64,000 nucleotides of DNA from positions 1 through 64,000 of the forward strand of contig NZ_JACVOU010000004.1 of the NCBI RefSeq assembly GCF_018882205.1, in the 5' to 3' direction. Position numbers and translations under genes: made by a program. Each line of letters begins with the position of its first letter. Within the stretch, counting starts at the first letter, position 1. The stretch is from Polynucleobacter bastaniensis (lineage in GTDB: Bacteria; Pseudomonadota; Gammaproteobacteria; Burkholderiales; Burkholderiaceae). Shown in pieces: positions 4,052-23,263 of this stretch. The notes beneath the pieces were generated by a model. That model saw only the letters and a list, made by a program, of their open reading frames with translations, ran no database searches and was not told the DNA's origin.

Positions 4052-4323
4052 CTTTGTATTCAGTGGCTTAGTATCATTTTCATTTTTGTAAAGTTATTCT
4101 GCCTATATAAAAATAGCATGCTAAAAAACTCGGTTAATAAAAAGTGATAAGTTTAACGGGGATGGGTTAGTGTAGTAAGTAAAATCCGAAATTAGATGGC
4201 TGGTAATTCAGTCCATTGTTCATTATCAGCTAGTCAATTAGACGAATCGTTAGACTGTTATAAAAAATATTGTTTAATAGCGAAATAGATTTTTTATAGA
4301 TTAATAAACAGAATTCTTAATCT

Positions 4324-4345
4324 AAGGTAATAAAATTACCTTTTT
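4324..4345 (+). terminator. Weak intrinsic terminator candidate
   Basis: AAGGTAAT, a three-base loop, ATTACCTT and further T's form an 8-bp stem with a T run. It lies about 275 bases after the MaoC–SDR stop and would end the acyl-synthesis transcript. The stem is AT-rich, so efficiency is doubtful. Confidence 0.4.
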
Positions 4346-4493
4346 AGTATCTAATTATGATCCTGATATTTTCATTTAATGGTTAACTGAAGTTAGCTTG
4401 AGACTTATATGGTTCTTAATTCCCGTTATTTTGAGTATTGTCCTTGATAAAAAAATAGAATGGAATAGAGAGCTCAAATTACAATTATGGAAT

Positions 4494-4517
4494 AATACCC
4501 TCACTATAGGGGGTATT
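4494..4517 (+). promoter_or_regulatory. Leader hairpin upstream of the FemAB-like gene
   Basis: AATACCC and GGGTATT form a 7-bp stem around a ten-base loop, ending 32 bases before the ATG at 4550. There is no T run, so it is more likely a leader structure or a protein-binding dyad than a terminator. Confidence 0.3.
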
Positions 4518-4549
4518 CAAAATGATCTATCTCAGAAAAGCATAAAGCT

Positions 4550-5593
4550 ATGTATGTTAATGTAGTTAAAAATTACGCTGATATTAATGGACTAAATATT
4601 AGTTTTCGATTGGAATCTTTAGATAAATGGATGACTGTTCTCAGGGGTGCCTCTTATATTCCAGTCCTATATACAAATAATAGTTTGGAATTTCAGTGGG
4701 CCAATCATAAATCTCACGTTAGTAAGAGCGAAGATATATCAATGGTAATTAATTGGAATAATGAGCCCGTAGCTATCTGGCCTCTAAGCATGTCAACTAA
4801 CTGTAATAGCGAGACGCTGAGCTCCCAGGGTCTGCCAATATTACCCCCCCTTTTTATTGCTAGTTGTCCAAATATCACTCAAAAAAGAATTTTTAAAAAA
4901 TGTATAGAGATGGCCGAGTTTCTTGCAATTAAGATTAAAGTATCTGAATTTGAAAGCCAGGTGATGTTTAGTGATTTAATTGGGCTTTCACCTTGGCACT
5001 CAGAAGCCATGCTTAATGGCGCATCTTGTACGATTCAATACGATTTATTTGTTGATCTTCAAAGGACAGTTAGTGACATTAAGGCTGGATTTAGAAAAAG
5101 CTATAGATCATTAGTTATTCCTAGGAAAAATGAATGGAGTATCGCTGTATTGGACGTTTCTGATGAACATGTTTGGAATGAGTTTAAAAATCTTCATTAT
5201 TTTGTTGCAGGCAGGAAGACTCGCTCTGACTTGACCTGGAAAGTTCATTTTGACGACATCGTGAATAAAGATGGATTTCTGGTGTACTTAAGGGACCAAG
5301 CCGGGGCAATGGTTGGAGGAGGTTTTTTTAATTTTACTCGTGACGAGGGATTTTATAGTGTTGGCGCCTATAGGCGTGACTTGTTTGATCGGCCATTAGG
5401 GCATCTTATTCAATTTCAGGCTATTCTTGAACTAAAAAAAAGAGGGGTTCATTGGTATCGCCTAGGAACAAGGCCTTATCTATCCGCTAAACCTCAACCC
5501 ACAGCTAAAGAAATATCGATAGGTAATTTTAAGCAGGGATTCTCCTCGCATATGTTCCCACGCTATCTATTGCGCCATGCATTGTCTTCTTAA
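4550..5593 (+). CDS. FemAB/GNAT-like acyl or aminoacyl transferase
   Basis: This 347-aa protein has the two-half GNAT architecture of FemAB-like proteins. The C-terminal half shows the best signs: a basic helix KAGFRKSYRSL (about 180–190), the strand VGGGFFNF, a YSVGAYRRDLF stretch and an ending FKQGFSSHMFPRYLL resembling the FemAB 'FK.GFG' close. No signal peptide or membrane segment is apparent. It is followed after 24 bases by a DegT-like gene, so the two are likely cotranscribed and may amino-acylate or acylate a sugar. Given the KAS III and MaoC–SDR genes upstream, an acyl transfer role is plausible but inferred. The start lacks a clear Shine–Dalgarno sequence. Confidence 0.6.
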   Translation: MYVNVVKNYADINGLNISFRLESLDKWMTVLRGASYIPVLYTNNSLEFQWANHKSHVSKSEDISMVINWNNEPVAIWPLSMSTNCNSETLSSQGLPILPPLFIASCPNITQKRIFKKCIEMAEFLAIKIKVSEFESQVMFSDLIGLSPWHSEAMLNGASCTIQYDLFVDLQRTVSDIKAGFRKSYRSLVIPRKNEWSIAVLDVSDEHVWNEFKNLHYFVAGRKTRSDLTWKVHFDDIVNKDGFLVYLRDQAGAMVGGGFFNFTRDEGFYSVGAYRRDLFDRPLGHLIQFQAILELKKRGVHWYRLGTRPYLSAKPQPTAKEISIGNFKQGFSSHMFPRYLLRHALSS

Positions 5594-5617
5594 TTTTCAG
5601 GAAACTGAAAGTAATAC

Positions 5618-6577
5618 GTGAATATGAAAATTGAGCATTTTCTTTGGCCTAAAAGTAATTTATTCAATGTTATCAAATCACTTTTTTGTACAAAGAGTAT
5701 AGAAAAGGTTGAAGCGCGACTCCATGAGATGTTTCCATCGGGCTACCCTGTTTTATTTTCTAGCGGGCGGGCAGCTCTTTCTGCTGCCTTACTGCAAAGT
5801 AATGTATCTAGGAAAGATTTTGTTGGTGTATTTTCTTACGCTAGCCATTGTGTTTTAGATACAATTTCAAGAGTTTCAACCCCATTAAGCGGCCCATATG
5901 CAAAAAAAGAAAATTTAAGAGTTGTTTATCACCAATGGGGCTTTGTTCAGGAGGTTGATTTACCCGAAAATACGATTGAAGATTGTGTCGATACGCTTTG
6001 TAAAATTGGTACAAAATTATTTCCTGGAGGCGGTAGTTTTGAAATATGGTCATTACCGAAAATTTTGGGCACTACATCTGGGGGAGTGCTCTGGTGTCGT
6101 ACTGAGAAATCAGCGCTTATAGCTCAAAAACTTCGGGACAATCGAGGTGGCGGTGTATTTTTATGGTCTTTACGATTATTCGGAAAGGTGGCATTGGGAG
6201 CTCATTTATGCTGGGAGGGTATAGAGCCAAATATGGGCGGAATTTCAAAATCACAAGTTAGTGAAATTTTTTCAGGAATAAAAAATTGGGAAAAAATTGT
6301 ATCTATGCGTCAAAAAAACCTAGAAATTCTTTGGCCATATGCTCTTAGTTGGCTGCCAAAGCCAGTAGATCGTTTACCATGCGCTATTCCAATTCAGAGC
6401 TCTTATCCAGAGGGTGAAATTGCAGAGCTTGGCTTATCTGCAGGATATAGAATGATTGAAAGGATGGGAGAAAATGCTGAAATCTCAGTAGAGAGAGTTC
6501 TTCCTATACCTATTCACCAAGATATAGATCGATCATGGATTAATCACATAATAAAAATGATTCTAAATAAAGGCTAA
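5618..6577 (+). CDS. DegT/DnrJ/EryC1-like PLP aminotransferase homologue, short
   Basis: The protein (319 aa) shows the fold signature of sugar aminotransferases. FSSGRAALSAAL matches the N-terminal PLP-phosphate loop, IEDCVDT matches the Asp that contacts the pyridine nitrogen, and WSLPKILGTTSGG carries the Schiff-base lysine. The family usually has about 360–400 residues, so this is short, mostly in the C-terminal domain. It may transfer an amino group to a 4-keto sugar, but the unusual motif spelling leaves a non-classical role open. The start is uncertain: GTG 5618 or ATG 5624. It follows the FemAB-like gene closely. Confidence 0.6.
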   Translation: MNMKIEHFLWPKSNLFNVIKSLFCTKSIEKVEARLHEMFPSGYPVLFSSGRAALSAALLQSNVSRKDFVGVFSYASHCVLDTISRVSTPLSGPYAKKENLRVVYHQWGFVQEVDLPENTIEDCVDTLCKIGTKLFPGGGSFEIWSLPKILGTTSGGVLWCRTEKSALIAQKLRDNRGGGVFLWSLRLFGKVALGAHLCWEGIEPNMGGISKSQVSEIFSGIKNWEKIVSMRQKNLEILWPYALSWLPKPVDRLPCAIPIQSSYPEGEIAELGLSAGYRMIERMGENAEISVERVLPIPIHQDIDRSWINHIIKMILNKG

Positions 6578-8317: not shown

Positions 8318-10240
8318 ATGACAGATATTAGAATATCTTGTGGTAAATTTCACCAATACAAAAGTTTATTTAATAAATTTCAGCTTACGCATTTCATTAG
8401 CGATAATTTAAAAATTGAAGGAAATAACCTCTTTCATTCATGGACTAACACTACCGGAAATAAGTTTTATTTATTTGGTTATTTGGTAGGAATTCGACAA
8501 GCCGACGGCTCACTATCTCCCCCGACATTGATTAAGATAGATCCGGGATTATTAGAAAATCCTGATTTAATACCAAATATAGAGGGAAGATTTGTACTTT
8601 TAAAAGTACATAATGAAACTGGAATAGAGATTTGGACAGATCAATATGGTCGTATTGACATTTATTGTCAAAAAATTGAGGGGGGATATATATTTGCATC
8701 TGGCATGGATGCTCTGCCAATATCAATCGCTAGGTCGGAGCTAAATGAAGTTGGATTAGCCCATAGTCTAGCAATTTACGGATCTAGACCCGCAAAGCAA
8801 GACACTATTTATAAAAATGTCACCCGTCTCGGAGTAAATCAAGGTTTCTTTTATAAAGATGGCGCGCTAAGTATACTGCTGAGGAAATTTAAGCCTCGAA
8901 CAATTTCCCCTGTTTATGAACATAAAGATCTCAATAGGTACGCTAATTTTTTTATAGAGGCAATAAGATCGAGATCATCAAGTGATGGAAATATTGTATA
9001 CCTGTCTTCAGGCTGGGATTCCACAGCAATACTAGCTACCTTAATTCATTTACATGGTAACAGAAAGGTGAAGGCCATCATAGGTCGAATGAGATATTCA
9101 GATAGGAGTGGCGTAATTAATCAGTTTGAAATTGATAGAGCTAAAGCATTTGCAGAATACTATTCAATTGAATTAGTCGTTGTTGAGCTTGACTATACTA
9201 AGGATGTTGGAAATATTCTAGGTGATATATTACCAATTTTTCGATCCCAGCAATTTGCTAGTTTGGTTGGGATAAACCATTGGAAATTAGCCGAGGCTGC
9301 TGCTAGAATTTCAAATGGAAATGAGGCTATATTTGCGGGCGAAATAAGTGATGGAGCGCATAATTTAGGATTCAGTCAATATGTAACGATATTCCATCCG
9401 GCCTCTCGTGATTTTAGGGAGTATAGCGATAAAATGGCCTCTTACTTATTTGGCCCAACTTTTTATCAGCAAATATTAAATGGTACTTATAAAGTGGATC
9501 CCGTTTGGAATATTTTTCTTGACAAAAATAGTCAAATTAAATTGGATAAAGCAGCTGACACTAAGGAAGGCATCACGAACCAATTGCTTTCCTCATTTTT
9601 CTTAAGGCCTGGGCGGTTACCATTTTATTCAATCAACAACACAAAATTACTAACAACCAATGGGGCTCATAATTATTCATCTATATCTGAGTCTAAGTAT
9701 TTTGGGGAAATTCTACAAGAAATTACACCAGATAATTTATATTCTTTTTATCTCCACCTTTACCATTCATTTCACTGGCAGGGATCTACTGTTTCAACCT
9801 TAGAGCATACTGCTGTTCATCATGGTTTGAAATGCCACATGCCATTTTATGATTCTCAAATTATCGATTTTTTATCAGCTATGCCTGAAGATTGGGGTAG
9901 GGGATTAGATTTAAATAATACGAAATATCCATTAAAATGGATGTTACAGAATAGAATTGATTATCCATACGAATACCAATCTGGACCACATGCTTACACC
10001 TACGATATAAGGCCTGAGTTTAGTTTAGGAGGTGAAATACTACATTCATCTTCGTATTCCCCAATATTTAAGAGTAGGTTCCGTGAAAAATCATTTATTA
10101 ATCTTCTGAATGAGGAATACTTTGATTTATCTTATATAGATAAAACAATAAAAAAATATTTAGAGGGCGAAGAATTACTGGGTCAAGAGGTGGCTGATAT
10201 ACTATCTTTAGGCAACCATTCTTTAGTGGGGGTTTATTAG
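8318..10240 (+). CDS. Asparagine synthase-related protein lacking the N-terminal Cys nucleophile
   Basis: The C-terminal part has the ATP-pyrophosphatase (PP-loop) motif SSGWDSTA at about residue 230, as in AsnB, beta-lactam synthetases and related amide-forming enzymes. The N-terminal 200 residues keep the outline of the class II amidotransferase domain (EGRFVLL, TDQYGRIDIY, FASGMDAL), but the protein starts MTDIRISCGK instead of Met-Cys-Gly. The glutaminase nucleophile is therefore missing. It may use ammonia or another amine, or adenylate a carboxylate for a different ligation. A complete AsnB occurs at 26439, so the two are not redundant copies. Substrate unknown; amidation of a uronic or ulosonic acid is a reasonable guess. 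Confidence 0.75.
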   Translation: MTDIRISCGKFHQYKSLFNKFQLTHFISDNLKIEGNNLFHSWTNTTGNKFYLFGYLVGIRQADGSLSPPTLIKIDPGLLENPDLIPNIEGRFVLLKVHNETGIEIWTDQYGRIDIYCQKIEGGYIFASGMDALPISIARSELNEVGLAHSLAIYGSRPAKQDTIYKNVTRLGVNQGFFYKDGALSILLRKFKPRTISPVYEHKDLNRYANFFIEAIRSRSSSDGNIVYLSSGWDSTAILATLIHLHGNRKVKAIIGRMRYSDRSGVINQFEIDRAKAFAEYYSIELVVVELDYTKDVGNILGDILPIFRSQQFASLVGINHWKLAEAAARISNGNEAIFAGEISDGAHNLGFSQYVTIFHPASRDFREYSDKMASYLFGPTFYQQILNGTYKVDPVWNIFLDKNSQIKLDKAADTKEGITNQLLSSFFLRPGRLPFYSINNTKLLTTNGAHNYSSISESKYFGEILQEITPDNLYSFYLHLYHSFHWQGSTVSTLEHTAVHHGLKCHMPFYDSQIIDFLSAMPEDWGRGLDLNNTKYPLKWMLQNRIDYPYEYQSGPHAYTYDIRPEFSLGGEILHSSSYSPIFKSRFREKSFINLLNEEYFDLSYIDKTIKKYLEGEELLGQEVADILSLGNHSLVGVY

Positions 10241-10608
10241 TAGCCCTGTGTAATTAATATACTTGAAAGTTGTGTAGCTATAATGAAATATATATGATTA
10301 AAGTATATGTGTATTCAGGTGGCAAAGTCGATTTTATTCAACTATAAATTCTATAGTTAAGCATTTATTTATTTTAGAATTAGTAAGGCTATGCTTTTTT
10401 AACCTTTAGGCCGCTTCAAAAAGCGCTATTTTTTCTGTAATAATAGGTTTAGTTTAATAAATAATCCTACCTATATGAAAAATCAATATTTAAGAAAGAT
10501 TATATTTATAATATTATTATAGTTAAGAATTATATTATAGAAATTTATCTAGATATAATAACATCATAAAAAATTAATATCATTATTATTTATTAAATCC
10601 AATAAAAT
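10241..10608 (+). other. Gene-free, extremely AT-rich gap
   Basis: These 368 bases hold no credible gene. The second half (10440–10608) is almost entirely A and T. A small terminator-like hairpin lies at 10411–10434. The following gene starts without a Shine–Dalgarno sequence. Confidence 0.5.
10411..10434 (+). terminator. Intrinsic terminator candidate
   Basis: CGCTT, loop CAAA, AAGCG form a short 5-bp stem followed within two bases by a run of T's. It lies about 170 bases after the asparagine-synthase-like stop and would separate it from the next gene. Confidence 0.4.
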
Positions 10609-12477
10609 ATGATTTATCTTGATAGGTTAAGCTTTTCTTCAGTTTTGAAAATACTGTCTATTGGAGAGAAGAAAATATGCGTACTTGAAGATAGGTCACA
10701 TAGTTTAATTGTCGAGATAATAATATTAATACAAGGCATTGAGGTTAGTCATATAAATTTTTTTTCTGGAAATTTAAAAGACAGAGCTGGAGAGTCTGTT
10801 AGCTTTGTAGCCTCAAAATTAGCTAATAAAATAGCCATAGATTTGGCAAACGAGGAGTTAGAATCACAAGAAGAAATAAAACCTATATATAAAGTTTTAA
10901 AGCAAGAAGTTGTTGTGTTGCATTACGCAAAAAAATTGCTACCAGAGATTTTTAGATTCACATTACAGGCAGAGGTAATTCTTAGCTTATTCAAAGAACC
11001 AATATCTTTTGTTATGATGGATTCTTGCGAGGTTAATTTTGAGAATATTAAAAAATATTATCCAGAAGTAAATTTTAATCTGTATAGTAATTGGATTGTT
11101 AGATCGAAAGCGCTGGTTAAATTATTCGGAATTTTAATATATAAAGGATTTTTAGGATCTATAAAATTTAGAGATTTCTTTAAATATCAAAAATTACCAA
11201 ATAATAAGAAAAATTCTGTCCTAACAATATGCACGAATACGTTAGACATAGATAAATCCTTACGTGGGCAACCTTATTGGAGGGGAATCGAAGGTCAATT
11301 ATCGGATAAATTTATTTATATTTTAGGTGATGGTTTTAGTTATGCTAAAGGATTGAGCATAACTACTTTCAATAAAATAAATGTTTATCCTATTGAATTT
11401 AGTATATTAAATAGTATTCTTAAAAAATATAATCAATCTGATTATATTAGTAATATTCGAAAAGTAAGGTACAAGCTTATATTAAATATAACACATAAGA
11501 ATATTTTAATCCTATTAAGAATGATTATTCTATTAAGAAATTCAGAGTTGATGGGCGCTCTAGTTTTGCATTTAAAAATTACAGTATTTGTAAATGAAGA
11601 GCCATATTATGAATTCTCAGATGCAATAGAGGCAATTTCAGAAAATTTTAATATTAAGACGATTGGTTATCAATATTCTAATTTGGGAGGAATCTCAACT
11701 ATGATGTTAACTAATTCCGATTATTTTTTTACATTCTCAAATTTATATAATAATATTTATACGTTAGGTAAATTTGGACCGAAAAATATAATACCTAATG
11801 GGTATTTATTTGATTTTAATAATCCTGTTTTGATAGGCCGTGCAAATGAACTTAGGGAAAATTTTAAAAAATCAGGTGTAAATTTTGTGATTTGTTATTT
11901 TGATGAGCGTGTTGATCATGACAAATGGGGGACTGTTAGTAATGAATCCCACTATCAGGAATTTATTTGCCTAATTAAATATTTACTAGAGAACAAAGAG
12001 GTTGGCTTGATAGTAAAGCCACAATTTTTTAGGTACAGACCGAGTATATGGTACAAAAAAGATTGTTTAATCAATAAGGCCATTAGCTCCGGAAGGTATT
12101 TCGAGTTAGCGAGTGGAAAGATTGGAAAAAGAAATGATGTGCTTCCTGCTGAGGCTGCTCATGCATCTGATATATGTATTTCACACAAATTCGGTGGTAC
12201 TGCAGCGCTTGAGGCTGCCTTGTGCGGGAAAAGGGTGGCGCTTTTAAATTCTGTAACCTACAAGTGTATTGTAGATATGATATATGAAAAGGTAAATATC
12301 GAAAGAGCTAGCATGGAAAGCGTTATAGCCTCCATAATAGAGATGAGGGAAGCAAAGATTGGGGCAAAAAATTCAGACTTTGGAGATTGGAGTTCTATTT
12401 TGAAGTACTTCAATCATTATCAAGATTCAAGCGCCAGCATACGTATTGAAAATAAAATAAATCAATTATTAAAATAA
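10609..12477 (+). CDS. Surface-carbohydrate biosynthesis protein, probable GT-B-like transferase
   Basis: I do not recognise this 622-aa protein with certainty. Its second half resembles the C-terminal nucleotide-binding half of GT-B glycosyltransferases: a YQYSNLGG loop, a hydrophobic strand VGLIVKPQFF, and SDICISHKFGGTAALEAALCGKRVALLN, where the Gly/Thr-rich acidic loop matches the donor-binding site. The same pattern (ITSSLSSTAIESS) ends the protein at 21479, so the two may be distant relatives of the TIGR04326 type. No signal peptide is present. It is very AT-rich and Lys/Ile/Asn-rich, more so than the flanking chromosome, fitting transfer from another source. Confidence 0.5.
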   Translation: MIYLDRLSFSSVLKILSIGEKKICVLEDRSHSLIVEIIILIQGIEVSHINFFSGNLKDRAGESVSFVASKLANKIAIDLANEELESQEEIKPIYKVLKQEVVVLHYAKKLLPEIFRFTLQAEVILSLFKEPISFVMMDSCEVNFENIKKYYPEVNFNLYSNWIVRSKALVKLFGILIYKGFLGSIKFRDFFKYQKLPNNKKNSVLTICTNTLDIDKSLRGQPYWRGIEGQLSDKFIYILGDGFSYAKGLSITTFNKINVYPIEFSILNSILKKYNQSDYISNIRKVRYKLILNITHKNILILLRMIILLRNSELMGALVLHLKITVFVNEEPYYEFSDAIEAISENFNIKTIGYQYSNLGGISTMMLTNSDYFFTFSNLYNNIYTLGKFGPKNIIPNGYLFDFNNPVLIGRANELRENFKKSGVNFVICYFDERVDHDKWGTVSNESHYQEFICLIKYLLENKEVGLIVKPQFFRYRPSIWYKKDCLINKAISSGRYFELASGKIGKRNDVLPAEAAHASDICISHKFGGTAALEAALCGKRVALLNSVTYKCIVDMIYEKVNIERASMESVIASIIEMREAKIGAKNSDFGDWSSILKYFNHYQDSSASIRIENKINQLLK

Positions 12478-14413: not shown

Positions 14414-14950
14414 GTGCGAATTATGACAGCGGCGGGAAAGGCTGCATCGTTAGTTCATTGCAGGTTGGCTGAAATGATAACTGCAGGAAATTTGAAAAAT
14501 ATTAAAATGTTCTTAGCGGATGAAAGATGCGTGGATAAATACAATAAATTTAGTAATTATAGGGCAATAAAAAAGATTTACTCTAGATGCAGAAATGTAA
14601 ATGTATACCATTTTTTTAATGTCAAATATAGTGCTGCTTTTGCTTTAAAAAAGTATGAAAAATTGCTTAAGCATAATATAAATATTTTAGTACTTGGATT
14701 GGCGCCTGATGGACATATTGCATCTATATCCTTTGGAAGGGACGCTGAAAAGTTTGACAATAATTTAATTATAGTTAAAAGAGAGGCTGAACCGTTCGAG
14801 AGATACACTATAAATTATAATTTTATTGATAAAAATTGTCGAAAAGTTTATATTTTATTAAACAACGTTTTAAAAAGACGAATTGCAAAAAAGGTGGCTT
14901 TTACGGGGGATAAAAATAGCCCTTTATATAATATATATATTAAGGACTAG
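14414..14950 (+). CDS. 6-phosphogluconolactonase/GlcN-6-P isomerase-fold protein, start unclear
   Basis: FLADERCVD and VLGLAPDGHIASISF match the 6-phosphogluconolactonase motifs (DER and LG.G.DGH.AS), so the fold is that of lactonases or glucosamine-6-P deaminases. From GTG 14414 the product is only 178 aa, against about 230–240 for the family. The reading frame stays open upstream to 14273 and encodes DWINTSAKIIYREI, which looks like the missing N-terminal helix. No ATG, GTG or TTG occurs in that stretch, so it either uses an ATT/ATA start (for example 14336) or has lost its start and is decaying. It sits 3 bases before the FkbM gene. It could open a sugar-acid lactone made in this pathway. 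Confidence 0.65.
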   Translation: MRIMTAAGKAASLVHCRLAEMITAGNLKNIKMFLADERCVDKYNKFSNYRAIKKIYSRCRNVNVYHFFNVKYSAAFALKKYEKLLKHNINILVLGLAPDGHIASISFGRDAEKFDNNLIIVKREAEPFERYTINYNFIDKNCRKVYILLNNVLKRRIAKKVAFTGDKNSPLYNIYIKD

Positions 14951-15816: not shown

Positions 15817-16578
15817 ATGAACTATAAAACAAACCAAGAGAGAACTGCTGAGTATTTATCTAAATTTGATAGACAGAAGGTCTTAAGGCACATTCTTGGA
15901 GAAATAGAAACCCCTACAATATTTGATGTTGGCGCAAATAATGGTAGCTCAATCGAGGAATTTATTAATTTGTGGCCAAATGCAATCATTCATGCTTTTG
16001 AGCCCCAAGTAGAGTGCGCTGATAGCTTATTTAAAATTGCATCAAATCTAAGCTCATCGGCCGATAAAATATATATTAATAGTTGCGCTGTAGGTGCAAC
16101 TACTGAAGATAGGCCTTTTTTCACGCATGAAATTAGCAGCGGTTTGGCAGGCTTTAACAAGATTAACTTATCTAGCTTAGATTCAATTTATTTAAACGCT
16201 GAGTTGAAAAAAGATCTAGATCGTATTCAAGAATATGAGAGGGTCATCAATCATGGTCGTTTAGTAAAGACGGTTTCACTCAATGACTATTGTCAAGATC
16301 GAAATATTCAATCCATTGATTTATTAAAAATCGACACTCAGGGGCATGAGCCAGAAGTACTCTCTGGACTCGGTGCACGCTTGAGTGCTGTAAAGGTGGT
16401 TGTGACTGAGTTAATGTTTTATGATTATTATGAACGCTCTTTATCATTTTCAGATTTAGAGAAGTACTTAATACCTTCTGGATTTACTTTGTATGATATT
16501 TCTCATATAGCAAAAAATCCCATGAATGGAAGAACTGATTGGGTTGATGTTATCTATGTAAATAAAGGCGCTCTATGA
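15817..16578 (+). CDS. FkbM-family SAM-dependent methyltransferase
   Basis: The second FkbM protein (253 aa) has IFDVGANNGSSIEEF as SAM motif I and LLKIDTQGHEPEVLSGL as the FkbM signature. It is clearly diverged from the first copy, so this is not a recent duplication. Its stop overlaps the ATG of the aldolase gene (ATGA), linking it translationally to the six-gene sugar-acid run that follows. It may therefore methylate the product of that run. Confidence 0.85.
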   Translation: MNYKTNQERTAEYLSKFDRQKVLRHILGEIETPTIFDVGANNGSSIEEFINLWPNAIIHAFEPQVECADSLFKIASNLSSSADKIYINSCAVGATTEDRPFFTHEISSGLAGFNKINLSSLDSIYLNAELKKDLDRIQEYERVINHGRLVKTVSLNDYCQDRNIQSIDLLKIDTQGHEPEVLSGLGARLSAVKVVVTELMFYDYYERSLSFSDLEKYLIPSGFTLYDISHIAKNPMNGRTDWVDVIYVNKGAL

Positions 16579-17351
16579 GAAGTACATTTGCATTGCGAAG
16601 TAGGATTAAGGATAAGATTTCAGCGGGTGCTTGGATCACTCTTCCGGAATTAAGTATTGCCGAAATATATGCCAATGCAGGCTTTGATTGGATTGTCGTT
16701 GACCTAGAACACAGCACAATTGGCATTGAAAAAATGGGCGAGTTAATACGGATTATTGATATAAGTGGGGTTCCAGCCCTAGTGAGGGTAACTAGTAATG
16801 ACGAAAACTTAATTAAGCGGGCACTTGATGGTGGTGCTGCAGGGATTATCGTCCCTAATATTACTACTAAGGCAGAAGTGCTCGAAGCCATCTCATCGAC
16901 TCGCTACGGACCCTCTGGCACAAGGGGGGTTGGTTTGGGGAGAGCTCAAGCGTATGGAACTAATTTTCTAGAATATTTTAATTGGGTAGAAGCATCGGGC
17001 CCACTTGTTATTCCAATGATTGAGAGTAAGGAGGCGGTGGAAAATTTAAGTGAGATTTTATCCGTTCCTGGCGTGGATGTATTTTTGATTGGACCTTACG
17101 ACCTATCTTGCTCCCTCGGAGTTCCGGGAGAATTTAACTCTGAAGTATATAAGGATGCGTTAAAAAAAATTTTGAAATTGGGGTCAGAGGCTGGCTGCAC
17201 CCCGGGAATGCATATTGTTGAGCCCATTCCTGAATTATTGAGTGCGGCAGTATTAGATGGATATAAATTTATAGCTTGCGGTGTAGATATGAGAATGATT
17301 GATATCATGGCAAGACAATCAATAAAAGTAATTGATTCTTTAAGAAAATGA
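16575..17351 (+). CDS. HpcH/HpaI-family class II pyruvate aldolase
   Basis: This family carries out metal-dependent aldol addition of pyruvate (or a related 2-oxo acid) to an aldehyde, giving a 4-hydroxy-2-oxo acid, or the reverse. Visible motifs are DWIVVDLEHS (catalytic and metal region), LVRV (substrate Arg), the metal Glu in IPMIES, and FLIGPYDLSCSLG, which supplies the second metal Asp. At 258 aa it is full length. In most bacteria these enzymes are catabolic, but here it starts a chain of overlapping genes with a CMP-sugar-type cytidylyltransferase. I infer a biosynthetic role: making a 3-deoxy-2-ulosonic acid from pyruvate instead of PEP. Confidence 0.85.
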   Translation: MRSTFALRSRIKDKISAGAWITLPELSIAEIYANAGFDWIVVDLEHSTIGIEKMGELIRIIDISGVPALVRVTSNDENLIKRALDGGAAGIIVPNITTKAEVLEAISSTRYGPSGTRGVGLGRAQAYGTNFLEYFNWVEASGPLVIPMIESKEAVENLSEILSVPGVDVFLIGPYDLSCSLGVPGEFNSEVYKDALKKILKLGSEAGCTPGMHIVEPIPELLSAAVLDGYKFIACGVDMRMIDIMARQSIKVIDSLRK

Positions 17352-18139
17352 AGGCAATCTGCATTATTCCCTCGAGAATGGCGTCCAGCAGGTTTCCTAA
17401 TAAGCCATTAAAAAATATATGCGGTATTCCAATGATTGGCCACTGCTATTTGCGCGCAGTTAGGGCTAAATCATTTGTAGGTGTATATGTTGCGACTTGT
17501 GATCAATCAATAGCATCTTGCGTAGCTGACTTTGGCGGCCTTATTCTAATGACATCTGACGGGCATACTCGAGCAACAACAAGAACTGCTGAGGCCATGA
17601 TGGAAGCTGAGAAAAAGGTTGGGCATGTAGATATAGTAGTAATGGTGCAGGGTGATGAGCCATTGGTAAATCCAAGTTTGCTTGATGAGCTTAGTAAAAT
17701 TTTTGTGGATGAGAGCGTAAATATTGTAAATGTTATGACTAGGTTTGGCGGTGTTGATGACTTCACTGATAGGAATAATATTAAAGTTGTTGTTGATAAG
17801 GACAGTGATGCATTGTATTTTTCGAGACAGCCGATTCCCTTCGACCCAACACAGTTTGATATGAACAAAGCATTTATGCAAACAGGTATTATTGCTTTCA
17901 GGAGGGATGCATTAATAGATTTTAATGAAATACCGGAATCATTTTTAGAGGTGAGTGAATCAATTGATATGAATAGAGTGTTAGAGAACAAAGGCACAGT
18001 TAGAATGCATTTAACAGCAGACAAATTAATCGGGGTTGATGTGGCTCCTGACATAGCTAAGGTCGAAGAGTTGATGAAGATTGATGATCTTTATCTTGAC
18101 TATTCATTAAATTTACTCAGGGATACGGATGTCTTATAG
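17348..18139 (+). CDS. KdsB-like CMP-sugar-acid cytidylyltransferase
   Basis: The N-terminus IIPSRMASSRFPNKPL is the CTP-binding loop of CMP-Kdo synthetases, and VMVQGDEPLV carries the magnesium Asp. YFSRQPIPF and the later IDMNRVLENKG match the KdsB C-terminal half. Length (263 aa) fits. The family transfers CMP to the anomeric hydroxyl of 2-keto-3-deoxy sugar acids. A housekeeping kdsB would normally lie with lpxK or near other Kdo genes, so this is probably a paralogue for a different acid. It overlaps the aldolase by four bases and the next gene by eleven. Confidence 0.85.
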   Translation: MKAICIIPSRMASSRFPNKPLKNICGIPMIGHCYLRAVRAKSFVGVYVATCDQSIASCVADFGGLILMTSDGHTRATTRTAEAMMEAEKKVGHVDIVVMVQGDEPLVNPSLLDELSKIFVDESVNIVNVMTRFGGVDDFTDRNNIKVVVDKDSDALYFSRQPIPFDPTQFDMNKAFMQTGIIAFRRDALIDFNEIPESFLEVSESIDMNRVLENKGTVRMHLTADKLIGVDVAPDIAKVEELMKIDDLYLDYSLNLLRDTDVL

Positions 18140-19154
18140 GGTAGGAATTGCTGGTTATGGCATAGTTGGAAAAAGAAGACACGAGTGTATTAATAAAATT
18201 CCTGATTTCGAAGTTAAAGCAATATGCGACCGTAACATCTTGCAAGAAAGTGCTAAGGTAGATGATATAAAGTATTTTTCTAATTATCTGGATATGCTTG
18301 AAGAGGATTTGGATGTAATCATTGTTTGCTTGACAAATGACATCGCCTCGTTAGTTACTATTGCGGGACTAAAAAAAGGTGCCCATGTTTTTTGTGAAAA
18401 GCCTCCGGGTAGGACGGTTCAGGATATATTAAATGTTCGTATAGAGGAGGCTAAATACCCTAACTTAAAATTAATGTATGGATTTAATCATCGATATCAT
18501 GAATCAGTTCAATATGCTTTAAAAATTTTAGATACCAAAGAACTTGGGAATATTTTAAGCATTCGCGGGGTTTATGGAAAGGCGAAATTAATAACGTTTA
18601 ATCAACCTGATTGGAGAACAAAGAGAGATATTGCTGGTGGTGGCGTATTATTAGACCAGGGAATTCATATGCTCGACATCATGAGATTATTCTGCGGGGA
18701 ATTTATTGAAGTATGCAGTCATATATCTAATAGCCATTGGGGGTACGATGTTGAAGATAATGCATATGCATTAATGAAAACGGGTGAAGGCATTGTTGGA
18801 ATGATCCATTCATCAGCAACTCAGTGGAGACACAGATTTAATCTTGATATTAATCTAGAGAAAGGCTCTTTAATTTTAGGGGGTTTATTAACTGGGACAA
18901 AAAGCTATGGTGCTGAAACTTTGACTATAATCAAAGCGGACCCCGATAACGATCGGGGTGACCCTTGGGAGCAAACAATTAGATATAACAAAGATCCATC
19001 CTGGGATAATGAAATGCAAGTTTTTACAAAATGTATAACCCAAAATTTAAATATTAATTTCGGGTCGTCCTTCGACGCATTAAAGACAATGGAGCTGGTT
19101 AATAATATTTATAAATCCGACAAAAATTGGTCAAATAAATTTAAAATAACATAA
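18129..19154 (+). CDS. Gfo/Idh/MocA-family NAD(P)-dependent oxidoreductase
   Basis: The N-terminal Rossmann fold reads VGIAGYGIVGKRR and the conserved VFCEKPPGRT motif contains the family's Glu-Lys-Pro. GGVLLDQGIHMLDIM holds the catalytic Asp/His helix. At 341 aa it is full length. Such enzymes oxidise, reduce or epimerise sugar or cyclitol hydroxyls. Its 5' end overlaps the cytidylyltransferase by eleven bases, so it is part of the same transcript. A plausible job is adjusting the stereochemistry or oxidation state of the aldehyde or sugar acid used by the pathway. Confidence 0.85.
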   Translation: MSYRVGIAGYGIVGKRRHECINKIPDFEVKAICDRNILQESAKVDDIKYFSNYLDMLEEDLDVIIVCLTNDIASLVTIAGLKKGAHVFCEKPPGRTVQDILNVRIEEAKYPNLKLMYGFNHRYHESVQYALKILDTKELGNILSIRGVYGKAKLITFNQPDWRTKRDIAGGGVLLDQGIHMLDIMRLFCGEFIEVCSHISNSHWGYDVEDNAYALMKTGEGIVGMIHSSATQWRHRFNLDINLEKGSLILGGLLTGTKSYGAETLTIIKADPDNDRGDPWEQTIRYNKDPSWDNEMQVFTKCITQNLNINFGSSFDALKTMELVNNIYKSDKNWSNKFKIT

Positions 19155-19155
19155 T

Positions 19156-19761
19156 ATGAAAAACAATATTGATAAAATATATTCAAATGACATCTCACAA
19201 TTTTCTAAAAATTATTTTGATTACTTGAAGTATGTACTTGATTGTATAGACATTTCTCAAATCAAAGTATTTGTTAATCTACTGCTTGCAGCGAGAGAGA
19301 GTAATTCGCAGATTTTTTTTATTGGAAATGGTGGTAGCGCCTCAACAGCAAGTCATTTTGCAAATGACCTAAGTATTGGGTGTAAGGCAACCCCTGCATT
19401 TAAAGCTATCAGTCTTTGTGATAATCAATCCATTATTACTGCAATAGCAAATGATTTTGGATATAGTCAGATATTCGTCAGGCAGCTCGAATCCTTGGCA
19501 AATGAGGGTGATTTACTAGTTGCTATTTCAGCCTCCGGGAATTCAGAGAACTTAGTTTTAGCATTGGAATATGCAAATAAAGTAAAGATGAAATCATGTT
19601 CATTGGTTGGATTTACAGGTGGAAAAATGAAGGAAATATCACAATATTGCATTCATATACCTACAGATATTGGGGAATATGGCCCAGCTGAAGATTGCCA
19701 TCTAATAATTGATCACCTCGTAAGCTCCTATTTCATTAGATTACTAAAGAATGACTTATAG
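19156..19761 (+). CDS. SIS-domain sugar-phosphate isomerase (GmhA/KdsD-like)
   Basis: A single SIS domain fills this 201-aa protein: FFIGNGGSASTASHFANDL at about residue 54 and LLVAISASGNSENLV at about 115 are the phosphosugar-binding loops. The N-terminal helix before the domain and the CHLIIDHL end are like GmhA (sedoheptulose-7-P isomerase). No CBS domains, so it is not a full KdsD. It probably converts a ketose phosphate to an aldose phosphate, whose dephosphorylated form could be the aldehyde for the aldolase. One base separates it from the upstream gene's stop and it overlaps the next by eleven. Confidence 0.85.
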   Translation: MKNNIDKIYSNDISQFSKNYFDYLKYVLDCIDISQIKVFVNLLLAARESNSQIFFIGNGGSASTASHFANDLSIGCKATPAFKAISLCDNQSIITAIANDFGYSQIFVRQLESLANEGDLLVAISASGNSENLVLALEYANKVKMKSCSLVGFTGGKMKEISQYCIHIPTDIGEYGPAEDCHLIIDHLVSSYFIRLLKNDL

Positions 19762-20512
19762 TCCAGAGTTGATTGATCTTGCAATAAATACAGCGAGAGA
19801 GTCTTTGCAGCATTTAAAAAATATCAATAATCGAGACTATTCTTTAATTCAATCGGAAGATTTACATGAATTAAAGTCGAAAATTGATATAGAGCTAAAT
19901 ATATTGATTGAAAAGAAATTAAAAAAAACGAATATTCCTATTCTTTCTGAAGAAGAATATGGAGCGGCAGATGTCGACACCATTACCAAGCCAAAACTTT
20001 GGTGGATAGTTGACCCACTGGATGGAACAATAAATTTTGTAAGAAATTTAGGCCCATGTGGTATTTCAATAGCTTTATATTCTGGCATGACTCCCTTGTT
20101 TGGGGTTGTTGTCGAATATCCTAGCGGGGATATCTATTGGGGGGGGAGAGGCGTTGGATCTTTTGTAAATGGGTCAAAAATAATTGTTTCAGATAAAAAT
20201 GATCCAAGTATCAGTGTCGCTTGTACAGGAAAGCCATCTCGATTGATCTTAAATGAAACCATAACCCACATTTTAATAAATTTATTTAATTCTTTTGCAA
20301 AAATCAGAATGTTGGGATCTGCTTCAATATCGCTAATAAAATTAGCAAGGGGTGATATTGAGTTTTATTCAGAAAATGAAATAATGATATGGGATGTTGC
20401 AGCTGGTATAGCAATAGTAGAAGGAGCAGGCGGAGTAGTTAGTGCAATGCCAGGCAATCATCCATACGCATTAAATGTGACTGCAACGAATGGTAAGGTC
20501 GCTATAAATTGA
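19751..20512 (+). CDS. Inositol-monophosphatase-family sugar phosphatase
   Basis: Metal-binding motifs are complete: LSEEEYGA (first Glu), WWIVDPLDGTINFVRN (DPLDGT signature, about residue 81) and IMIWDVAAGIAIVEGAGG (C-terminal Asp). Length (253 aa) is standard. The family removes phosphate from inositol phosphates, but also from fructose bisphosphate, PAP and other small phosphates. In this operon a sugar phosphate from the SIS isomerase is the likely substrate. It overlaps the preceding gene by eleven bases. Confidence 0.85.
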   Translation: MTYSPELIDLAINTARESLQHLKNINNRDYSLIQSEDLHELKSKIDIELNILIEKKLKKTNIPILSEEEYGAADVDTITKPKLWWIVDPLDGTINFVRNLGPCGISIALYSGMTPLFGVVVEYPSGDIYWGGRGVGSFVNGSKIIVSDKNDPSISVACTGKPSRLILNETITHILINLFNSFAKIRMLGSASISLIKLARGDIEFYSENEIMIWDVAAGIAIVEGAGGVVSAMPGNHPYALNVTATNGKVAIN

Positions 20513-20520
20513 AATTAAAT

Positions 20521-21462
20521 ATGAAAATCGGTGTTTGTTCACGATCATTTTCTAGAAATGGGAAATTGAGATCCTTACTTCAAGAGAAGTATTCTGATGT
20601 GAAATTTAATGAGTCAGGTAAGCAGTATGAGGGCGATGAACTTACAGACTTTCTTCTAGATCGAGATGCGGCAATTATAGGGCTTGAGAAAATAAATTTA
20701 GAAATTTTAAAAAATTTACCAAAGCTAAAGATTATTAGTAAATATGGCGTTGGTCTTGACATGATAGATCAAAATGCAATGGCACTAGAGGGTAGGCGCT
20801 TAGGCTGGACGCCAGGTGTAAATAAATTGGCTGTTGCTGAGCTTGCCTTATCATTTGCGCTTTCACTTGTTAGAAGAACCATGGTGGGAAATAGCTCTTT
20901 GATAAGGGGCGAATGGCTTCAATGCATAGGTGGCCAGTTAAGTGGAAAGACTTTTGGTGTGATTGGCTGCGGAAATGTAGGAAAGGAATTAATAAGACTT
21001 TTAGCACCATTTAATTGCAAAATAATTGTATTTGATAGGATTGAATACAGCGACTTTAACGCCAAATTTAATGTGATAAAGGCTGACCTAAAATTTCTTC
21101 TGAATGAGTCAGATATCATTTCTATTCACTTGCCACTGGACTCATCAACATCAAAGCTATTGAGTGATGATGAATTTAACGAGATGAAAAATAATGTAAT
21201 GATCGTAAATACTGCTAGAGGAGGTATCGTAAGTGAAGAGTCCTTGCTAAAGTTTATGCGTAGTGGAAAAGTGTCGGGCGCAGCATTCGATGTCTTTGAG
21301 ATAGAGCCTGCTACAAAAAATCCCTTGTTGCTATTAGATAGTTTTATAGGAACACCTCATATAGGAGGAAGTTCCGAGGAGGCAATATATGAAATGGGAT
21401 TGGCGGCAATTAGAGGGCTAGAAAACAACACGGTGCCACTCATCAACATGAGTGAAAGCTGA
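20521..21462 (+). CDS. D-isomer-specific 2-hydroxyacid dehydrogenase
   Basis: The nucleotide fold reads FGVIGCGNVGKELIRLL, followed by VNTARGGIVSEESL with the substrate Arg, AAFDVFEIEPA with the Glu, and GTPHIGGSSEEA with the catalytic His. The N-terminal KIISKYGVGLDMID is also typical. It is nearest to 3-phosphoglycerate dehydrogenase-like enzymes but lacks the regulatory ACT domain. A TTG at 20509 overlapping the previous stop (TTGA) is an alternative start; ATG 20521 lacks a clear Shine–Dalgarno sequence too. It may reduce a 2-oxo acid or oxidise a 2-hydroxy acid that feeds, or branches from, the ulosonic acid route. Confidence 0.8.
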   Translation: MKIGVCSRSFSRNGKLRSLLQEKYSDVKFNESGKQYEGDELTDFLLDRDAAIIGLEKINLEILKNLPKLKIISKYGVGLDMIDQNAMALEGRRLGWTPGVNKLAVAELALSFALSLVRRTMVGNSSLIRGEWLQCIGGQLSGKTFGVIGCGNVGKELIRLLAPFNCKIIVFDRIEYSDFNAKFNVIKADLKFLLNESDIISIHLPLDSSTSKLLSDDEFNEMKNNVMIVNTARGGIVSEESLLKFMRSGKVSGAAFDVFEIEPATKNPLLLLDSFIGTPHIGGSSEEAIYEMGLAAIRGLENNTVPLINMSES

Positions 21463-21478: not shown

Positions 21479-23263
21479 ATGAAATTAATAGTTACTAAAG
21501 ATGATGATAAATACATGCCCTCCCCGAATGAAGTGCTCGTACAGTGGTCATCATACAGAACTGGGGAAAGGATAATATCATTACCTCGAGTTATAGAGCA
21601 AAACACAGATCAGTTGAAAATAATATATTTAGAAAGGCTTAATTCAGTAGCAAATACTACTTTAGAAGGATATAAAGTATCTGATTGCTTTGATATATCA
21701 AACAAGTTCAATTACTGGAATGCCACTTCATTAATGCAGAAGTTTAATGCTGGCAAAGATTCAGAAATACTAGATGTAATTAAGCTTATCGCATTTAATG
21801 AATATGTAGTGAAAAAAAATGATAACAGTAACCAAATACTCATTATTGATAAGAATTTAAATAAATATTTTAAACAAAATAAATATAATAAATTTTTATT
21901 ATATAAAAAATATATTTACGTTTTCATTTCAATAATATATTTTTTAATAAAAATATTAAGTAGATACATATATTTCAAATTTAATAATAGGCCTATTTTG
22001 AATTTAGAGGCAAAGATAGTATTTTTTGATGTATTAGCACACTTATATCCAAATAAAAAAGGATATTCTTTTGGCTATTGGGGGGTATTAGAGGAAAAAA
22101 TTATTGAATGGGGAATCCCTGTTATATGGATGCATTCATATATTAAATCACCATTAACTAAGAATTATGCAAAAGCAATGAGCATAATAAACAACAAAAG
22201 AAATCAGGTAGATAAAGGAAGTCAACATTTTCTAACTGATTCCTTTATTAATGGGAGAGTCTTAGGCCAAACATTTTTATTGTATCTAAAGCTTTTATCC
22301 AATTCCAATAAATTTATAAATAAAGCACTTAATTCAGTTGATAAATTTGATGAATTATTTATTAATCATCAGTTTCACCCCATGGTAAAAAGTCTTTATG
22401 GTAAAGAAGCGATTGATTTTTGCTACAGATACTCTTTATTCGAAGAAGTCTTTTTAAAGCTAAATAAGTTAAATAAAGTATTCTTCTTGTATGAAAATCA
22501 ACCATGGGAGCATGCGTTAATATCTGCTGGAAATAAGGTAGTTAAAGCTACTAATTACGGAGTCGCGCATAGCACCATCAGACCGTGGGACTTGAGGTAT
22601 TTTAATCTAGAGAGTTTCGGGACTAAGGCAAATAACTCTAACAAATCAACCCCTGATATAATACTAGTTAATAGTAAAAATGCAAATGAACAGTTAAGCG
22701 ATAAGAGATTAGTATTAAAAAAGATTATAGAGGTCGAAGCTTTGAGATATATGTATATAGATAAAATAAGAAAAAATTATACAAAGAAAAGTGGAAAATA
22801 TAAAGTTATTGTTTATTGTGACTATTTAAAACTAAATACTATAAAAATTATCAATTGGATTGAAAAATTTGAAACTGAAAATATTGTTTCTTCATTTTTT
22901 GAGTTTACATTTAAAGAGCACCCTGCATATAAAGATCTAGTTAATGATAGAGTGAATGTAATAGATTATGGAATAGAAAAATCTATGGAAATACATGATA
23001 TTGCAATTACAAGTTCATTGTCTTCAACTGCAATAGAATCAAGTGAAGTTGGATTAAAGGTATTGCAGGTGTTAGATGCAGATTCTTTTGATTTTAGTTT
23101 AGGCCGGTACAGTGAGTTTGAAATTTCTATTGCTCGGACTTATGATGAGTTTCAAAAATTCTTTTTAGATATTAGTTCAAAAACAAACTATTTTATCGGT
23201 AAAAATAACTATTTTGAGAGTTCTAAAAAATTAGAAAAATGGTATCGTATTCTAAATGATTAA
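21479..23263 (+). CDS. Surface-carbohydrate biosynthesis protein (TIGR04326-like), probable glycosyltransferase
   Basis: This 594-aa protein has one strong hydrophobic segment at about residues 145–160 (YIYVFISIIYFLIKIL), which suggests membrane attachment. The C-terminal half contains FKEHPAYKDL and AITSSLSSTAIESSEVG, which resemble the donor-binding region of Kdo- or sialic-acid-type capsule transferases and of the TIGR04326 surface-carbohydrate family. It starts 16 bases after the six-gene sugar-acid run, so I infer that it uses the CMP-activated product. That link is contextual only. It overlaps the polymerase gene by eight bases. Confidence 0.5.
   Translation: MKLIVTKDDDKYMPSPNEVLVQWSSYRTGERIISLPRVIEQNTDQLKIIYLERLNSVANTTLEGYKVSDCFDISNKFNYWNATSLMQKFNAGKDSEILDVIKLIAFNEYVVKKNDNSNQILIIDKNLNKYFKQNKYNKFLLYKKYIYVFISIIYFLIKILSRYIYFKFNNRPILNLEAKIVFFDVLAHLYPNKKGYSFGYWGVLEEKIIEWGIPVIWMHSYIKSPLTKNYAKAMSIINNKRNQVDKGSQHFLTDSFINGRVLGQTFLLYLKLLSNSNKFINKALNSVDKFDELFINHQFHPMVKSLYGKEAIDFCYRYSLFEEVFLKLNKLNKVFFLYENQPWEHALISAGNKVVKATNYGVAHSTIRPWDLRYFNLESFGTKANNSNKSTPDIILVNSKNANEQLSDKRLVLKKIIEVEALRYMYIDKIRKNYTKKSGKYKVIVYCDYLKLNTIKIINWIEKFETENIVSSFFEFTFKEHPAYKDLVNDRVNVIDYGIEKSMEIHDIAITSSLSSTAIESSEVGLKVLQVLDADSFDFSLGRYSEFEISIARTYDEFQKFFLDISSKTNYFIGKNNYFESSKKLEKWYRILND

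Follow-up and report, generated by a model that had tools for sequence, protein, structure and literature searches.

A gene cassette of Polynucleobacter bastaniensis pairing a class II aldolase with a KdsB-like cytidylyltransferase as a candidate source of a CMP-activated ulosonic acid

In known bacterial routes to acidic ketoses activated with cytidine monophosphate (CMP), the 2-keto acid comes from a phosphoenolpyruvate (PEP)-dependent synthase. What, then, supplies the substrate of a cytidylyltransferase that is encoded next to an aldolase and away from any such synthase? The question is raised by six consecutive genes at 16575-21462 of a 64,000-nucleotide stretch of the Polynucleobacter bastaniensis genome (contig NZ_JACVOU010000004.1; the window hereafter means this whole stretch). 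All on the + strand, they encode an HpcH/HpaI-type class II 2-oxoacid aldolase (ALD; 16575..17351; PF03328, 108 bits against a cut-off of 25), a KdsB-superfamily cytidylyltransferase from a non-housekeeping clade (CT; 17348..18139; CTP_transf_3, 140 bits), a Gfo/Idh/MocA-type NAD(P)-dependent sugar oxidoreductase (GFO; 18129..19154; Pfam GFO_IDH_MocA), a SIS-domain sugar-phosphate isomerase resembling phosphoheptose isomerase (SIS; 19156..19761; Pfam SIS and SIS_2), a sugar phosphatase of the inositol-monophosphatase fold (IMPase; 19751..20512; PF00459, Inositol_P, 147 bits) and a D-2-hydroxyacid dehydrogenase (HADH; 20509..21462; PF02826, 2-Hacid_dh, 163 bits). Our favoured answer, held at little better than even confidence, is that this cassette makes and CMP-activates an ulosonic acid other than 3-deoxy-manno-octulosonate (Kdo) or the sialic-acid family for the surface polysaccharide of the surrounding locus, with ALD making the keto acid that CT activates.

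The six open reading frames (ORFs), their families and their junctions are as given in the preliminary description of this DNA: ALD and CT overlap by 4 nt, CT and GFO by 11 nt and SIS and IMPase by 11 nt, GFO and SIS are 1 nt apart, and the IMPase/HADH junction is a 4-nt overlap from the start TTG 20509 or an 8-nt gap from ATG 20521. All six proteins exceed their Pfam cut-offs, and none reaches an NCBIfam equivalog cut-off. The catalytic motifs are intact in the five enzymes checked (ALD, CT, GFO, IMPase and HADH). The same description had taken the tight spacing as a sign of one pathway. Among the other junctions across 8318-31882, 11 of 15 measure at most 20 nt and seven overlap; tight packing is therefore a property of the whole locus and says nothing about a shared pathway, and we discarded it as evidence.

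We then asked whether the window CT could be the CMP-Kdo synthetase that the cell needs anyway, or be fed by a synthase encoded nearby. Within this 2.14-Mb genome of six contigs, the window lies on contig C5. A separate housekeeping kdsB was located on contig C1, between genes that we read as lpxK and adk. The sole KdsA match of the genome is on contig C4 (402.6 bits, cut-off 314), and two NeuB-type genes lie with a further CTP_transf_3 cytidylyltransferase inside 4 kb on C1 (C1:555847-559771). No KdsA or NeuB match was found at the cassette locus, the matches in the genome being confined to C4 (KdsA) and C1 (NeuB), in line with the earlier remark that neither gene is near; a KdsA or NeuB feeding CT at the locus is thus excluded. 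Since the kdsB, KdsA and NeuB genes of this organism are located elsewhere, the window CT is an additional enzyme without a local PEP-dependent synthase. The C1 stretch itself has the look of a separate nonulosonic-acid-type locus of the same genome.

To place CT among its relatives, we used 80 loci (L059-L138; L and G numbers denote loci and genomes) that scored best against a profile (A3) built from eight cassette CTs. In the phylogenetic tree, all 45 CT rows linked to an ALD were separated from the 18 KdsB comparison rows by a branch with 100/94 support. The window CT clustered with those of G333, a Nitrospinaceae metagenome-assembled genome (MAG), Prochlorococcus AG-412-I05 and Devosia subaequoris (99/98), with the bootstrap not yet fully converged, the window CT on a long branch and the KdsB rows all from one genus save one. 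The tree holds 89 of 122 rows; the 33 removed were 22 from Desulfovibrionaceae and 11 of KdsB. Together with the separate kdsB, the split excludes CT as the sole housekeeping KdsB, an outcome that the preliminary description had allowed could overturn its reading.

The AlphaFold2 (AF2) model of the window CT (predicted local distance difference test, pLDDT, 92.4) had the CMP-Kdo synthetases 1h6j and 1gqc as its top fold matches. The best match was the capsule CMP-Kdo synthetase, including its complex with CMP-Kdo; Foldseek gave TM scores of 0.86/0.93 against 1gqc, and NeuA-type structures ranked lower. This match indicates that CMP transfer to a 2-keto acid is very likely the type of reaction, with an altered sugar site. 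Consistent with this, the residues for CTP and Mg binding (R10, R15, K19, D103 and D231 in window numbering; roles from PMC3149649, in excerpt) are invariant in 80/80 cassette CTs and 27/27 comparison KdsBs. CT reached the broader Kdo-cytidylyltransferase subfamily model NF003952 (236 bits vs 193) and stayed below the equivalog cut-offs of TIGR00466 (136.8 vs 155.2) and NF003948 (159.5 vs 281). The sugar pocket differs. In place of RHIGVYAYR, named as the Kdo-binding substrate motif of KdsB in an excerpt of PMC7717453, the window CT carries MQTGIIAFR, so that the consensus (R/K)HxGxYAYR is absent. Cassette CTs have Arg at window position 75 (80/80), Gln at 178 (80/80), Asp at 207 (80/80) and Met at 208 (79/80), whereas the 27 comparison KdsBs have Thr, Asn or Ser at 75, His at 178 (27/27), Glu at 207 and Gln or Leu at 208, three of them Leu. 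These 27 are the rows that match the housekeeping kdsB best, plus the genome's own copy and one from L161, and at least one of them (L040) is a second copy inside a polysaccharide locus. Tree and motif together place the window CT in a clade that is separate from KdsB and altered in its sugar-binding motif.

Across 186 genomes of the genus, the best matches to the window CT outside its own genome came from G333 (54%), G380 (43%), G436 (42%) and G382 (36%), and among the matches listed nearly all the others fell at 30-35%; in 300 genomes of the order, a match at 1e-40 occurred in nine, namely this genome and eight of one family. A scan of genome contigs with the single CT sequence gave no match, whereas the profile scan succeeded. 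The 80 profile-selected loci come from 19 named phyla, including the archaeal Hadarchaeota and Woesearchaeota; four records carry no phylum name. In plasmids, a DNA search found no match and tblastn with CT found 72 records, all below 60% identity; among the best 20 of these 72, the annotated ones were named kdsB or 3-deoxy-manno-octulosonate cytidylyltransferase. KdsA exceeded its cut-off in 7 of 20 CT-carrying genomes chosen for breadth (INDEPENDENCE from Kdo), and the 13 others included Dehalococcoidia, two Syntrophomonadaceae, Hadarchaeum, Woesearchaeota, a Treponema and Devosia; several of these are incomplete MAGs, which makes single absences weak. In these 13, the KdsA profile had no match in seven, a match of 33 bits in one and matches of 97-133 bits in five, the latter probably 3-deoxy-arabino-heptulosonate 7-phosphate (DAHP) synthases.

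The aldolase is the most constant companion of this enzyme. ALD was present within 8.5 kb of CT in 66 of the 80 CT-selected loci, in 26 cases within 60 nt. Of the 19 named phyla, 18 have it at least once, the exception being Planctomycetota with its single locus. Of the 14 loci without ALD, six end less than 2.1 kb from CT on one side. Conversely, we searched 398 genomes of the phylum with a profile built from 18 cassette aldolases; it matched 24, with seven matches at 314 bits or more set apart from seventeen at 206-257 bits. CT was found within about 3.5 kb of six of the seven strong ALDs (this genome, G015, G610, G499, G602 and G549); in G629, the seventh, the contig begins about 1.3 kb from ALD, and no CT was counted. 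A CT was near one of the 17 lower-scoring ALDs (G645), giving Fisher p 0.0003 with G629 taken as a miss and with some loci having short flanks at contig ends. The linkage of ALD and CT is therefore conserved across phyla. The earlier suggestion that the aldolase builds the acid for CT gains this association; its details, with pyruvate joined to an aldose that the isomerase and the phosphatase would provide, stay a proposal.

His46, Arg71 and the metal ligands Glu150 and Asp176 of ALD are invariant in 71/71 aligned cassette-type aldolases. We presume part of the roles given to these residues. The rest follow PMC8560999, an excerpt of which describes AbHpaI as holding its metal by Glu and Asp and as favouring condensation about 40-fold over cleavage. 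ALD shares family and catalytic residues with the class II pyruvate aldolases HpaI, GarL and RhmA; unlike them, it adjoins a CT and lies far below their equivalog cut-offs (HpaI 142.6 vs 368.8, GarL 127.6 vs 406.75, RhmA 116.4 vs 441 bits). Aldolases of the HpaI/GarL/RhmA type belong to degradation pathways, partly by our own assumption and partly according to an excerpt of PMC7610986, which also describes HpcH aldolases as accepting small hydroxyaldehydes, some of them as taking hydroxypyruvate and some as using ketones as acceptors.

In contrast to this pair, the other partners are exchanged between loci. We examined the 49 of the 80 loci with at least 5.5 kb on either side of CT, using presence thresholds that we set for each family and that leave a 29% Gfo-like ORF in L068 uncounted; the largest clusters of unmatched ORFs include antisense shadow ORFs and were ignored. 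An extended short-chain dehydrogenase/reductase (SDR) occurred in 33 of these long-flank loci, a Gfo/Idh protein in five, neither in 11 and both in none. A haloacid dehalogenase (HAD) phosphatase was present in 30, an AroB-like cyclase in four, an IMPase in one and none of the three in 14, with no locus holding two. Two types of locus emerged: type I, with ALD, CT, SDR, HAD and usually HADH and with no Gfo or SIS; and type II, that of the window, with ALD, CT, Gfo, SIS and HADH plus either IMPase or a short-chain SDR and an AroB-like cyclase. In L060, where no SIS and no short SDR were seen, the cyclase scores 469 bits against TIGR04425 (cut-off 400). Among loci with ALD, extended SDR and HAD, 19 of 30 had HADH. 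The full six-family set was found in five loci, namely the window, G333 (L052), G549 (L159), G610 (L162) and Candidatus Geothermocultor (L114); L054 (G436) has ALD, CT, Gfo, SIS and HADH with HAD replacing IMPase. The six-gene set singled out in the preliminary description thus recurs complete in four other loci, and elsewhere its modules are exchanged or stand apart. A Gfo profile (A4) matched nine of the 398 genomes, this one and eight others, and in the eight, the gene adjoins SIS in six, HADH in six, a cytidylyltransferase in five and ALD in three. Two of these loci (L158 and L160) are truncated at contig ends, L164 is a weak Gfo match without the module, and in G645, from which L158 comes, ALD and CT are on a different contig.

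The partner proteins of the window have recognizable features. GFO has EKP at 90 and DxxIH at 176. IMPase has DPLDGT and WDVAAG and falls within its superfamily. HADH has the GxGxxG Rossmann motif with R237, E266 and H284 (R/E/H invariant in a 10-row alignment, A6). The roles of these motifs in GFO, IMPase and HADH are our assumption. SIS scored 119.7 bits against TIGR00441 gmhA, below the cut-off of 209.45, and 13 of its 15 PDB matches are phosphoheptose isomerases, the other two DiaA. HADH resembles phosphoglycerate dehydrogenase and glyoxylate/hydroxypyruvate reductase, a likeness that would suit a hydroxypyruvate donor.

On these grounds, we propose that ALD would add a pyruvate-type enolate to an aldehyde, the donor being pyruvate or hydroxypyruvate supplied by HADH. 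SIS, GFO and IMPase would prepare or tailor the aldehyde or the product and strip its phosphate, perhaps with the assistance of a lactonase-like protein encoded upstream. CT would convert the free 2-keto acid into the CMP-sugar, which a glycosyltransferase-B (GT-B)-fold protein of the TIGR04326 family encoded downstream may transfer. Each reaction, their order and the nature of the sugar are inferred, and the step from ALD to CT is suggested by association, not by chemistry. The neighbouring genes did not single out a heptose, a hexose or a cyclitol as the sugar.

Several observations weigh against this proposal. The counts over the 80 loci are not independent, with Thermodesulfobacteriota accounting for 39 of them and the profile built from cassette CTs. 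ALD is truly missing in eight of the 80, all with long flanks (L079, L084, L096, L103, L120, L133, L134 and L138), and the cassette is patchy, a strong ALD occurring in 7 of 398 genomes and Gfo in 9 of 398. At position 148, the window ALD carries Met, in contrast to Gln in 65 of 71. Hydroxypyruvate was used by only 19 of 571 class II aldolases in a screen cited by PMC7610986 (in excerpt), and HADH is missing in 11 of the 30 long-flank loci with ALD, extended SDR and HAD, L097 holding a weak 29% match. Gfo, SIS and HADH occur without ALD beside other cytidylyltransferases in L055, L157 and L163, and for this reason the six genes may be two sub-modules instead of one linear aldol route. The candidate transferase of the window lacks QxxxD, which is also no conserved column among nine aligned proteins. 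We know of no glycan structure for any organism that carries the cassette.

Those ALD-free loci are also where another route finds its footing, one in which the keto acid is made without an aldol step and ALD has a different role, for example exchanging hydroxypyruvate for pyruvate. SIS would convert sedoheptulose 7-phosphate or a similar ketose phosphate to an aldose phosphate, Gfo/Idh would oxidise C1 to a lactone, and a lactonase would open it; HADH would then oxidise C2 to a 2-keto-aldonate phosphate (a 3-hydroxy ulosonate), which IMPase would dephosphorylate for CMP activation. The three loci in which Gfo, SIS and HADH lie beside an ALD-free CT, KdsB-like in L055 and L157 and a NeuA-like CT-cupin fusion in L163, fit such a sequence, as does the transaldolase gene that adjoins SIS in L054. 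A lactonase-type gene recurs among the 80 loci, being PGL-like (6-phosphogluconolactonase-like) in four and of the cyclase family in ten, never both; the PGL-like genes were counted by hidden Markov model (HMM), the BLAST panel having undercounted them. No lactonase-type gene of either kind was found in the five long-flank Gfo-type loci, and the PGL-like ORF of the window appears short or dependent on a rare start codon. The AroB-like cyclase that can replace IMPase retains the K, R, N, H and H of the AroB motif region in 8/8; this region presumably includes the carboxylate binders of DAHP, so the substrate of the cyclase is probably a keto-acid phosphate. The absence of HADH from 11 of 30 loci counts against this route too, and above all it gives no clear role to ALD, the commonest partner of CT. 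We regard it as the main rival, unlikely but with a real chance of being right; neither it nor the aldol route explains every locus.

Alternatively, ALD and CT could make one building block, and GFO, SIS, IMPase and HADH an unrelated second one, the two being neighbours merely by sharing a polysaccharide locus. The locus-wide tight packing would allow this, and the halves do occur apart: type I loci have ALD and CT without Gfo or SIS, and L055, L157 and L163 have the converse. In the other genomes, however, the Gfo module adjoins a cytidylyltransferase in five of eight, with two of the other three at contig ends, and the mutual exclusion of Gfo and extended SDR, and of HAD, IMPase and AroB-like cyclase, over the 49 loci is what one pathway predicts. 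We consider such a chance assembly improbable. That CT is a second CMP-Kdo synthetase, with a cassette that supplies or modifies Kdo for the polysaccharide, is highly improbable in our view: CMP-Kdo synthetases, headed by the capsule type, are its nearest matches in fold and sequence, and NF003952 is reached, but both equivalog models are missed, the His of the Kdo motif is Gln throughout the 80 cassette CTs, the locus has no KdsA, and 13 of 20 cassette genomes, among them archaea, Dehalococcoidia and Syntrophomonas and some incomplete MAGs, have none over the cut-off.

Returning to the proposal that ALD makes the keto acid for CT, the finding exceeds six genes of one bacterium: it is a modular, cross-phylum family of cassettes. 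As a tentative extension, to which we give somewhat less than even weight, the family may be a wide and patchy, undescribed set of PEP-independent pathways to CMP-ulosonic acids in which a class II pyruvate-type aldolase replaces KdsA or NeuB beside a KdsB-like enzyme whose sugar pocket is altered. Interchangeable feeders (Gfo/Idh with SIS, or extended SDR; IMPase, HAD phosphatase or AroB-like cyclase) would diversify the sugar. In one branch, a keto-acid phosphate would be cyclised, and the resulting carbocyclic ulosonic-acid analogue would then be CMP-activated. If true, the ALD-CT pair of many bacterial phyla and two archaeal MAGs would represent a second chemical logic for CMP-activated acidic ketoses, the kdsB annotation of such enzymes would be wrong, in some cases in organisms with no recognisable KdsA, and a class of surface sugar that has gone unrecognised would come to light.

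Compared with known systems, the cassette resembles the Kdo pathway (KdsD, KdsA, KdsC and KdsB) and the KpsU type in the CTP activation of a 2-keto acid by a KdsB fold and in having isomerase-type and phosphatase-type genes, and differs from it in the missing PEP-dependent synthase, the changed Kdo-motif residues, the aldolase and two extra dehydrogenases. With the NeuB/NeuA pathways to nonulosonic acids (sialic, legionaminic and pseudaminic), it shares the logic of a synthase plus a CMP-transferase for an acidic ketose, but the locus has no NeuB, and CT is on the KdsB branch, not that of NeuA. In the open-licence literature, which leaves most subscription journals and preprints uncovered, none of the papers listed, in part the best 10 or 20 of up to 45, treats this gene set, its sugar or its route in its title or opening abstract lines, in agreement with the first impression that no characterised route is known to use this enzyme set.

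The gene downstream of the cassette (21479..23263, +) begins 16 nt past HADH and encodes the TIGR04326-family GT-B-fold protein (203.7 bits, below the cut-off of 250), a candidate transferase of the CMP-activated acid. Its AF2 model (pLDDT 76) gave GT-B matches at Z of about 12-14; the best 50 matches listed were GT-B folds generally and held no Kdo transferase, which is not evidence against one. It carries (K/R)xHP at K479 (K479-E-H-P), as do 11/11 TIGR04326-like ORFs of the 80 loci and 1 of 12 LIC12162-family ORFs of cassette loci; an excerpt of PMC12887879 describes this motif as the one that binds CMP in sialyltransferases and in retaining Kdo transferases. With the retaining Kdo transferases WbbB (GT99), KpsC (GT107) and KrkA (GT140), the protein shares (K/R)xHP and, by its model, a general GT-B-type fold; unlike them, it is without QxxxD, their nucleophile motif (same excerpt of PMC12887879). 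A TIGR04326 or LIC12162 protein was found in 15 of the 49 long-flank loci, which makes the transferase a variable element of the cassette. The families TIGR04326, TIGR04331 (LIC12162) and TIGR04425, compared as family models only, recur in cassette loci. Their names, we take it, point to Leptospira O-antigen genes; the single paper listed under them compares Herbaspirillum genomes.

Upstream, the PGL-like protein, a possible lactonase of 178 aa, is encoded at 14414..14950 (+; PF01182, 64 bits). DGH and DER motifs are present, its relatives measure about 230 aa, and the frame stays open upstream to 14273, where before GTG 14414 only ATT, ATC or ATA could serve as a start (CTG was also sought). 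Relatives adjoin ALD-CT in other genomes. An FkbM-type gene (15817-16578) lies directly upstream of ALD and overlaps it by 4 nt. The locus is AT-rich, with a GC fraction of 0.33 vs 0.45 at 37001-64000 and 0.41-0.46 in two other stretches of the genome. The region at 8318-12477 of the window contains, to our reading, an asparagine-synthase-like gene; it also encodes a 622-aa protein that matches no Pfam or NCBIfam model. In G436 (L054), relatives of the two are neighbours and adjoin the cassette, and the 622-aa protein has weaker relatives in L063, L087 and L103.

Further variants were seen in other loci. Our scan of viral contigs found a single one, L212 (IMG/VR contig IMGVR_UViG_3300010883_024701, 5.8 kb, classed viral), with PGL-like, ALD and CT genes consecutive at 344-2587 and an ORF at 4448-5791 that we take to resemble ribonucleotide reductase; a virus may thus carry a minimal cassette. 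L055 (2137-9514) and L157 (5046-12426) have a module of Gfo, SIS, SDR, AroB-like cyclase and HADH beside a divergent CT with I, Y, F, E, D and S at sites 178, 179, 184, 204, 207 and 208; an aminotransferase and a second Gfo/Idh replace ALD, an arrangement that suggests an amino variant. In L163, the NeuA-like cytidylyltransferase (3786-4940, -), to our reading an apparent cupin-like fusion, lies beside Gfo, SIS, cyclase and HADH. In Desulfovibrio-group loci such as L062, ALD, SDR, CT and HAD are joined by a gene resembling hexapeptide acyltransferases, and the 9-kb flanks lack HADH. Eight loci, drawn from both cassette types (L060, L065, L068, L086, L117, L125, L128 and L132), encode a methyltransferase whose N-terminal part is rich in Cys and which has an early (D/E)IR motif; it directly follows CT in six of them and may methylate the cassette sugar. 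Finally, L165-L168, from the same genus as the window, encode another kind of Gfo/Idh, which scores 250-270 bits to A4, alongside SIS and short HAD-like genes and genes resembling sugar kinases and nucleotidyltransferases; three of them also have a transaldolase, and by our reading these loci resemble a nucleotide-heptose pathway.

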